Below are positions 39,401 through 42,400 of a DNA stretch of 64,000 nt, in pieces (within the stretch, counting starts at the first letter, position 1; each line of letters starts with the position of its first letter). Origin of the DNA: Apostichopus japonicus (lineage: Eukaryota > Echinodermata > Holothuroidea > Aspidochirotida > Stichopodidae); contig NC_092571.1 of assembly GCF_037975245.1 (NCBI RefSeq), positions 25,560,564 through 25,624,563 of the forward strand, in the 5' to 3' direction. The translations under genes and the position numbers were made by a program. The notes beneath the pieces are model-generated. The model was given only the letters and a program-made list of their open reading frames with translations, had not been told where the DNA came from and did no database searches.

Positions 39401-42400
39401 AACAACATCAGTGATTTACATACAGTGAAGATTACAGACATTTCACATGATCAGAATGCAAGACACTATTAAATACATTATGGATTTCTCTAGTGTTCTA
39501 TGGATTCTATGGGTGTCTGCTCTTTCATATAAATTTAAATATTTAAATTAACCGAATTGCAATATACTGCTGCAGATATGTGCAGAGTAGTAAATTGCAT
39601 TCCAGATGCAGTGGACACTAAACAGGCAAGGGGGTGGGGGGGGGGGGGGGGGGGGTGGAAGAAGAGCTTTGAAACACATACTATTACACATAGCTTATTT
39701 CCATCATTTGGTAGACTTTCTATACTTAACAGTCTATTGTAGCTCTGTTACACTGTTGAATCATTAATACTTTCCTTGCATTAGTGCCCTATCATCTCAG
39801 GATGTTGCTATAGTGTGTTCTTACCCTAGTTCTCTGTCATAACACTGCATTGCTATAGTGTATTTCTATCCTAGTTCCCTATCTTCATAATACATTACTA
39901 CATTGTGTTCTCACCATAGTTCCCTATCTTCATATTGCATTTTACTATAGTGTATTCTTACCCTAGTTCACTGTCTTCACACTGCCTTAATATCGTCTGT
40001 TCTTCCCCTAGTTCCCTATCTTCATACTGTATTATTATAGTGTGTTCTCACCCTAGTTCCCTGTCTTCACACTGTATTGCTATAGTGTATTCCTACCCTG
40101 GTTCGCAGTCTTCACACTGCAGTACTATAGTGTATTCTTACCCTAATTCCCTATATTAAACTCTTTTTTTATAGTGCATTCTTACCCTACTTCCCTATCT
40201 TCATACTGTATTATTATAGTGTGTTCTCACCCTAGTTCCCTGTCTTCACACTGTATTGCTATAGTGTATTCCTACCCTGGTTCGCAGTCTTCACACTGCA
40301 GTACTATAGTGTATTCTTACCCTAATTCCCTATATTAAACTCTTTTTTTATAGTGCGTTCTTACCCTACTTCCCTATCTTCATACTGCATTACTATAGTG
40401 TATTCTTACCCTAGTTCCCTATCTTCCCACTGTATTGCTATGGTGTGTTCCACATTGTAAGGATTACGTAACTCAAACTCAAAGTACTCTGCCGCTGCGA
40501 ACGTTGGATGTATAGTGTGTTGGGTGGTGATAACAGACTGCAACATTAACAGTATCCCCTCTTTCTTACTCAGAGATCTACAAGAGAATGAAACAATATT
40601 GAAGCGTTCTCCTGAAAATTGGTCACTAATGTTTGCATATCATGCATATGTTTATATGTAATCTTGTTGTGGAAAAATAAATAAATGAAACCAAATTAAA
40701 TATCATTTTCTTGTTAGCTAGCTCAAATTACACAGATACGGTGTACAAAAGTGCACAAACTTACAAATAATAAACGGCAAATGAGCAAAATACATGGATT
40801 TTAATATAGAAAGTACAAAACCAGACAAAGGTCAGTACTGACCAAGAATGAGTTAGGCTTCTTGGTATAGGTATTGACAGCATTGTATGTTAGTATTGCA
40901 ATTGTGCAAGTCGCGATCGTTATATCTGAATAGTATAATTGTGCGTTTGTCTCTGCGGTTGCACTGTATTGATATTGTTATGTACTATTAAAACAAAGAT
41001 AAGAAAATAATAAATTGTTAGGCAAGGATTGAGTTGTATTGTAATACTAAAGAACTCACAAAATTATCATGTCTATTTGTATAAATGTCAAATGAGTCAA
41101 TAAAAGAGATGGGAAAAAAAAAAAATGTTAGTATTGAAATACATAAATCAAACGAAGGGTTTTCACACGGCTCAGACAGAATACTTGTGTCACATTCACA
41201 TGTTTCCAAGACAGTTGTTGGCATTTGGCCTCTTTCTGGAGAATGCGTCCCTATCCATCAACATATATCCAATGTGTTTTTTTTTATAATTTTTGATAGG
41301 AGGTGGGAATTTCCCTTGTTACCTCTGAATCTCTATTGTTTTCAGGTCTCTGCTTCTTTGAACCTTCTCTTCCTTTTTCACCTGAGAAATTAAGAAGAAG
41401 AAAAAAACGAGAGAAAAGATACAGAATAATAATAATAATAATAATAAATTACACTTATATAGCACTTAATACAGCATTTCAATCACTTTACAGAGTAGGA
41501 AAGAGACAAAGGAAACCAAGGGGGAAAAAAAGAAACTAGGAATCAAACAGACATGTTTTAAGTTGTCTCTTGAAAATACAAAGGAAGGGAGAGTCACGAA
41601 CATGAAATAAGAGTTTGTTCCAAAGAGAAGGCGCAGCGACAGAAAAGGCATGATATATAATAATAAAGGATATTAAGTGAATGGAAGTCTAACGACATAA
41701 TAAGTTATGATTAATATATAGAAGACAATGTATGAGTCTCTGTATAACTTCTGGTCCACAAACCCAACTTTATCATCCATCTGCATTCATAGACTGCTTT
41801 AAGGGTCAATAAAGATTTGAGTTATTTTTTCAAGCATTTGATTCACATGGAAAATCATACCAAATTCACACATTGCAAAGGATCTGTTTATCTGAAAGTT
41901 AATTTAGTTTGTAATTTTTGTGACTGGCTGCACAAAACAGGCCTTTAAAAATAAAGGCAGGCGGGGGGGGGTGTGGGAGGCGGGGGGAGGGGACAATAAC
42001 CCACCAAAAATTTCTCATTTTTCTCCTTTCCCAGCGATTCACGGACAGCTTTCATTCTGTTCAACTTGCGTTGCTGTTTGGAGCTCATCTCATTGGAATC
42101 TGATTTGTTCTGTCCTCCCGTTCTCGAGAAGAGAGCCGTGGCCACCTCCTGGTCAACTTCGGCCATGTGAGAAGCCATGAACGTCCTGTTTTGGCTCAAG
42201 TGGGTGGCCCTTGCATCTTTAACAAAAGTAGAATTCAAATATAGATCACTTAAAAGGCCACGAAAGACGTTTCCAGGCAAGTCCATCTACTTGAAACCAT
42301 CCAAACTACCTTTAAACAGGGTACATGTTTTTTTTTTATGTTGGGCGGGAATGAAGAGCTAATTCGGTGGGCAAAAAATATGTCTGAAGATTATCAAGTC

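Follow-up and report, generated by a model that had tools for sequence, protein, structure and literature searches.

Tandem copies of an exon end and its 5' splice site in an NPHP4-like gene of the sea cucumber Apostichopus japonicus

How may a coding exon come to be followed by a dozen copies of its own 5' splice site, and which of these copies can still give a normal protein? The question is raised by a tandem array on the minus strand of a 64,000-nucleotide stretch of the genome of Apostichopus japonicus (assembly GCF_037975245.1, contig NC_092571.1, positions 25,560,564 to 25,624,563), which is called the window here and to which coordinates refer unless otherwise indicated. The array starts inside a coding exon of a gene which we provisionally take, from the apparent likeness of its peptide to the vertebrate protein, to be NPHP4; some of the neighbouring minus-strand frames also appear NPHP4-like. 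We interpret the array, with a probability of about 0.8, as a minisatellite of the mirage type, i.e. a tandem repeat spanning an exon-intron boundary, in which productive mRNA would be made on the first donor and the other copies would be neutral passengers.

Structure of the array and reading frame at its edge

A first-pass annotation of the sequence had proposed about 14 tandem copies of an exon end with its 5' splice site, about 12 donors being intact. This description was borne out, since 14 clear units were found, 12 of which keep the donor GT (Table 1). Tandem Repeats Finder placed the array at 39808-40450, with a period of 45 and 14.3 copies (score 680), and also reported it in a form with a period of 179 bp (score 858). 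After dinucleotide shuffling of the window (20 times), scores for arrays with a period of at least 10 reached 65 at most. The donor +1 positions on the minus strand are 40409, 40364, 40320, 40275, 40230, 40185 and 40141 for units 1-7, and 40096, 40051, 40006, 39961, 39914, 39869 and 39824 for units 8-14, GT being lost at 40006 (GG) and 39869 (AT). Donor spacing is mostly 45, with 44 found twice and 47 once. A search of the whole genome (671,581,487 bases in 35 contigs) for the array returned one match, the array itself, and no identical array unrelated to NPHP4, match counts in this search being lower bounds.

The same annotation had noticed the duplication of a four-unit block at 179 bp, and units 3-6 and 7-10 were indeed found to be identical at 177 of 179 positions. 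Because of this identity, the block appears to have been doubled recently, and it is reasonable to suppose, as had been suggested, that the array may still be expanding.

Table 1. Features of the array in the window and of boundary-spanning arrays elsewhere in the genome. The slash marks the splice junction and the asterisk a stop; genomic arrays are given with their own position counts.
Feature	Position	Strand	Details
Tandem array	39780..40454	minus	45-bp unit, 14 clear units and a decayed fifteenth; GT in 12/14 donors
Coding exon ("exon 21")	40410..40577	minus	168 bp; 3' end ...CTAGG; followed by phase-2 intron
Exonic part of repeat unit 1	40410..40450	minus	41 bp of coding sequence
Authentic 5' splice site, donor 1	40404..40409	minus	AGG/GTAAGA; phase fits next exon
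TAA in frame on skipping donor 1	40406..40408	minus	read-through ...WEDRELG*
Next coding exon ("exon 22")	39054..39258	minus	205 bp, starts TGTCATG
Four-unit block, copy 1	40186..40364	minus	units 3-6, 179 bp
Four-unit block, copy 2	40007..40185	minus	units 7-10, 179 bp
L035	2873-3098 (donor-strand count)	minus	TIL domain, 1.1e-9; boundary-spanning array
L038	2709-3271 (donor-strand count)		P-loop NTPase, 6.5e-6; boundary-spanning array
L039	3217-6559 (G000 C1 ~12,646,716-12,650,058)		USP6NL, 9e-7, no Pfam match; starts at USP6NL-like exon end
L040	2403-3028 (donor-strand count)		MON1, 4.5e-7, Pfam 0.0095; boundary-spanning array
L042	2979-3554 (donor-strand count)	minus	aldo-keto reductase, 1.9e-5; boundary-spanning array
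L044	2745-3233 (donor-strand count)	minus	HMG-CoA synthase, 8.4e-27; boundary-spanning array
L060	604-708		36-bp array, sialyltransferase exon end, 1.9e-11; donor inside unit

The two exons flanking the array, named exons 21 and 22 of NPHP4 in the first-pass annotation, were defined by their borders and frames. The upstream one has the acceptor ...tctcttgtag/ATCTCTG and the open frame SLSKKEG...WEDREL; the downstream one lies between the acceptor ...ttttcgtttcag/TGTC (tttcgtttcag) and the donor CCGCAG/GTTAGG. Joined at donor 1, with phase 2 on both sides, they form one 124-aa open frame, and the units are thus serial copies of an authentic 5' splice site, as had been claimed. Unit 1 consists of the last 41 bp of the coding exon plus the 5' splice site of that exon, and matches the majority of the other units in 39 of 45 columns. 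The repeat had been described as running down the intron, which is correct for copies 2-14, while unit 1 holds the authentic donor together with the coding bases 40450-40410. The encoded peptide appears NPHP4-like, and the gene name is provisional; no match to NPHP4 was returned by Pfam or the PDB, whether Pfam has an NPHP4 model not being established.

It had further been suggested that downstream donors might lengthen the exon by multiples of the unit and that, as 45 is divisible by three, a number of these might, stops aside, preserve the frame. This was not sustained. With spacings of 44 and 47 interspersed, only three of the 11 intact donors beyond donor 1 preserve the frame by length. 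Since the phase-2 intron reads GGG TAA past donor 1, all 11 lie beyond an in-frame stop and would yield the same truncated protein, so that in-frame exon lengthening through later donors was ruled out.

The strength of the donors was evaluated with a donor scoring matrix. The 12 intact donors of the units rank above all the rest of the 79 GT sites in exon and intron, with scores of 6.2-8.8 as compared with at most 4.7 elsewhere. Seven donors, donor 1 included, have in common the 9-mer AGG/GTAAGA, which shares the top score of the 79 sites. Conservation was assessed on 11 units, after removal of units 7-9 (near-duplicates) and of unit 15 (decayed). The mean minor frequency is 0.104 in the donor stretch vs 0.124 overall, and 20 of the 45 cyclic windows are at least as low as the donor stretch. 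Selection on the donors was therefore discarded, since the conservation of their bases does not distinguishably exceed that of the remaining unit; the youth of the array may explain the intact donors well enough. On inspection of the units by eye, no pyrimidine tract was seen upstream of the TAG of the unit, and no acceptor was recognised within it. Recursive splicing and dual-specific sites were likewise rejected on inspection, as the units carry AGGGT in place of AGGT, with purine-rich sequence preceding the AG.

Comparable arrays in the genome

Further donor arrays were collected by searching the genome for three AGGTAAG motifs in series, with 20-50 bases between them (set A). Among the matches listed, which cover contig C1 and the start of C2, 11 distinct arrays were obtained, and the longest frame ending at the first donor of each was checked for protein homology. 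Six of the 11 begin at a homology-supported exon end (Table 1). For L038, the support comes from 18 Pfam families, all under curated cut-offs, and from PDB P-loop proteins with values to 9.3e-8. L037 and L045 follow long open frames without homology, and neither a long open frame nor homology was found for L036, L041 and L043. L041 is a partial, diverged copy (85.7% over 1878 bp) of the L042 array and its following intron; the two lie about 0.5 Mb apart (G000 C1), and no exon was recognised before the L041 array. Under a rough null, with 19,828 genes (a figure given in an excerpt of PMC10344927), an assumed 6-10 introns per gene and a 20-bp window, finding at least five of 11 arrays at exon ends has a P of 2.5e-10 to 3.2e-9.

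Two arrays offer particularly many alternative donors. The array at the USP6NL-like exon end is made of 65.7 copies of a 51-bp unit. Its first donor is matched to within one bit by 52 alternative ones, of which 14 are identical to it; one of the 52 both precedes the first in-frame stop and preserves the frame. In L045, which follows an unnamed open frame, 44 alternative donors come within one bit of the first, and all are identical to it.

Homology-supported exon ends were absent from the two sets obtained with full-consensus motifs, being 0 of 5 arrays in set B and 0 of 7 in set D, where L063 had no frame long enough to scan. The contrast between 6/11 in set A and 0/12 in sets B and D combined (Fisher p 0.005) involves small numbers and was picked post hoc. 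Three arrays of set D, namely L062, L063 and L068, look exon-like by eye only. L062 (minus, from position 1181 of the donor strand) repeats a 33-bp unit (AAG/GTAAGT) after an exon-like stretch for which no homology was found; its frame is open for at least 192 bases, about five units, and later donors would add 11 aa each. In L063 (442-1351), a 28-bp donor array has its first donor 14 bases after an ATG (ATGGCGGATGAAAG/GTAAGT), and may mark where a first coding exon ends.

The reversed motif GAATGGA was used as a control (set C), giving 22 distinct arrays among the matches listed, 11 of which were fetched. A homology-supported exon is found at the array edge in two of these, and in one the array spans the boundary. 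In the first case the exon encodes a PDZ domain (2.7e-4, under the curated cut-off) and the array starts just past the donor; the second, L060, is a mirage met through an unrelated motif. The other set C frames scanned had no homology match; L053 and L057 contain no scannable frame, and the arrays of L053, L055 and L057 reach the fetched edge, one side only being seen. Boundary-spanning arrays are thus 6/11 in set A vs 1/11 in set C (one-sided Fisher p 0.032); before L039 was settled, the comparison stood at 5/11 vs 1/11 (p 0.074).

Three AGGTAAG in series gave 2148 matches vs 1477 for the reversed motif, the matches clustering within arrays. Stricter motifs, again taken three times, gave 29 vs 37 matches for CAGGTAAGT and its reversed control, and 43 vs 38 for AAGGTAAGT. 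As neither clearly exceeds its control, a genome-wide excess of donor arrays was rejected, and mirages seem to be recurrent in this genome rather than shown to be enriched in it. On the acceptor side, open frames of at least 22 codons downstream of the array were listed, without a homology scan, and no exon start was recognised by eye at the edges of 26 arrays, on both strands.

Shape and phase were compared over ten boundary arrays, i.e. the NPHP4-like one, L035, L037-L040, L042, L044, L045 and L060, of which L037 and L045 are without homology support and the NPHP4-like gene is named provisionally. The part of the unit that is exonic varies from 0.06 to 0.96 and a uniform distribution was not rejected (Kolmogorov-Smirnov p 0.34), as expected for duplications occurring at random across the donor and kept through use of the first one. 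Because a stop precedes the next strong donor in eight of the nine computed cases, the exception being L039, in these eight only the first donor could make the normal protein; L060, like the array in the window, reads TAA at once. Phase 2 occurs in five of the ten arrays, the longest frame of L045 being assumed to give its phase. For a background of 0.22 the corresponding p is 0.048, an excess that is suggestive only, and L062, not counted here, speaks against the idea, being open in frame through about five units. We tentatively consider it possible, though somewhat doubtful, that 5' splice-site mirages recur in the sea cucumber under an effective first-donor rule, with genes bearing between a few and more than 40 donors of equal strength beyond the real one, and that the arrays survive best in phase-2 introns with an immediate stop, where errors would be silenced.

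Origin of the array and alternative explanations

The features described above suggest the following course of events. A segment of about 45 bp, which comprised the last 41 bp of the coding exon and, with the first intron bases, its 5' splice site, would have been duplicated in tandem, and unequal exchange or slippage would have extended the array into the intron, the doubling of the four-unit block being the latest step. The resulting pre-mRNA would contain 12 usable-looking donors, each copy bringing an exon end along with a donor. With every later donor GGG-TAA stays in frame, so that donor 1 would be required for productive mRNA, and transcripts spliced at the others would be truncated and probably removed by nonsense-mediated decay. 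Duplication across a donor would be harmless as long as the outermost, i.e. first, donor is used. In keeping with this, unit 1 is coding and the later units are its homologues. Judging from sequence, productive mRNA probably uses donor 1, the rest being neutral decoys, and the array, one of several in the genome, is probably neutral for the NPHP4-like gene.

Tandem repeats across exon-intron boundaries are known as mirages in lancelets, where they have been reported in Adh3 and in the globins BflGb6 and BflGb9, PGBD5 and TnC being also cited, and where reverse transcription PCR suggests that regular splicing continues (excerpts of PMC3087553 and PMC3902484). As in the present case, many units keep GT or AG signals, and unit lengths are similar (10-72 bp in Adh3, same sources). 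The array described here differs in being located in an echinoderm, in an NPHP4-like gene and at the 5' boundary, in having 14 units and in being known from genomic sequence. Its unit spans an exon-intron boundary, with 41 bp of coding exon plus the donor, most units (12/14) carry the splice signal, and turnover may be reflected in the nearly identical four-unit blocks, seen in a single haplotype. A lancelet host is a descriptive rather than a defining trait; here the mitochondrial genome of the assembly (contig C35, 16,099 bp) reads in the echinoderm code and has the gene order of sea urchins and sea cucumbers. As far as testable, the array fits the definition of a mirage, and is a large new example in a new phylum; no echinoderm mirage was found among the literature matches listed.

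Other systems share single traits with the array. A minisatellite of the human IFI6 (6-16) gene was reportedly found by Turri in 1995 to give multiple splice donors. According to an excerpt of PMC4526556, it is likewise a donor-bearing tandem repeat at an exon end, but two of its downstream units are used and encode different isoforms. In the array studied here the read-through frame closes at once, with TAA directly after donor 1, and downstream donors would give no productive longer protein. In intron gain by tandem duplication of AGGT, exon sequence with a splice signal is also duplicated (excerpt of PMC3087553); here, however, no new intron has formed, copies 2-14 lie inside one existing intron, and the duplicate does not supply both donor and acceptor. 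Splice signals also occur in the tandem array of the polyubiquitin gene UBC, where, as stated in part of PMC10809524, the repeats are coding and AGGT serves as donor or acceptor, whereas the units of the present array read AGGGTAAG, with a purine-rich stretch upstream.

Some points weigh against the proposed origin and use of the array. The exon-to-intron direction of growth is argued from the coding sequence and not from an outgroup genome. Strict use of the first donor is not guaranteed, because two downstream repeat units serve as donors in the human 6-16 gene (PMC4526556, in part). The full-consensus sets, in which frames were scanned for 5/5 and 6/7 arrays, contributed no homology-supported exon end. 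The name NPHP4, finally, is provisional.

An active role of the copies was considered in two forms. Misses of donor 1 might rise with the number of donors, so that the stop-containing mRNA and its decay would tune the output of the gene. Such a dosage device would agree with the observation that all 11 downstream intact donors give the same early stop, six being identical to donor 1, and with the presence of phase 2 in half of the boundary arrays. We regard it as unlikely, however, as the donor bases do not stand out by their conservation, the phase-2 excess is weak, the three uncounted exon-like arrays have phases 0, 2 and 1, and regular splicing is reported to be unaffected in lancelets (PMC3087553, excerpt).

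Still less probable is that the donors act jointly as landing pads for the U1 small nuclear ribonucleoprotein, aiding exon definition or shielding the intron from premature polyadenylation. Twelve sites complementary to U1 do occur in series, and exon definition can be favoured by a 5' splice site lying downstream (excerpt of PMC8724738), but the donor positions have no clear sign of selection and a single donor is normally enough.

Tandem arrays of period 10 or more occupy 8.0% of the window, and an ordinary intronic minisatellite could have come to abut the exon by chance, or a repeat could have invaded the exon from the intron. This is hardly credible, slightly less so than the landing pads, since homology reaches 41 bp into coding sequence and boundary-spanning arrays recur in the genome. 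In addition, the encoded peptide presumably aligns with vertebrate NPHP4 with no added unit.

Misassembly is a known risk in tandem arrays, but an artefact is next to inconceivable here, given the individual differences among units, their variable spacings and the production of the fitting A. japonicus assembly from PacBio HiFi and Hi-C data (PMC10344927, in part).

Wider interest and other features of the window

If the proposed origin is correct, mirages would extend beyond lancelets, and duplication across such a boundary would seem to be one tolerated way in which minisatellites are born. Artificial constructs are the usual means of studying how the spliceosome chooses between 5' splice sites that are nearly identical. 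Natural graded series of donors would be provided by the NPHP4-like gene (12 donors), the USP6NL-like gene (52 alternative donors) and the unnamed open frame (44 alternative donors), so that mirage arrays might be used, in a farmed animal, to test on natural genes how the correct splice site is chosen.

Three other features were noted in the window. At 45028-45161, apparently in another intron of the NPHP4-like gene, a 70-bp segment is duplicated (98%); the duplication starts about 28 bp after a likely donor and does not span the boundary. A long and degenerate repeat of GTACT/GTACAGTACT is located at 32942-33466, both of its strands containing open frames. An uninterrupted open frame of 391 aa at 16961-18136 bears a weak likeness to sulfotransferases, its match to Pfam Sulfotransfer_1 (E 0.0059) falling short of the curated cut-off.
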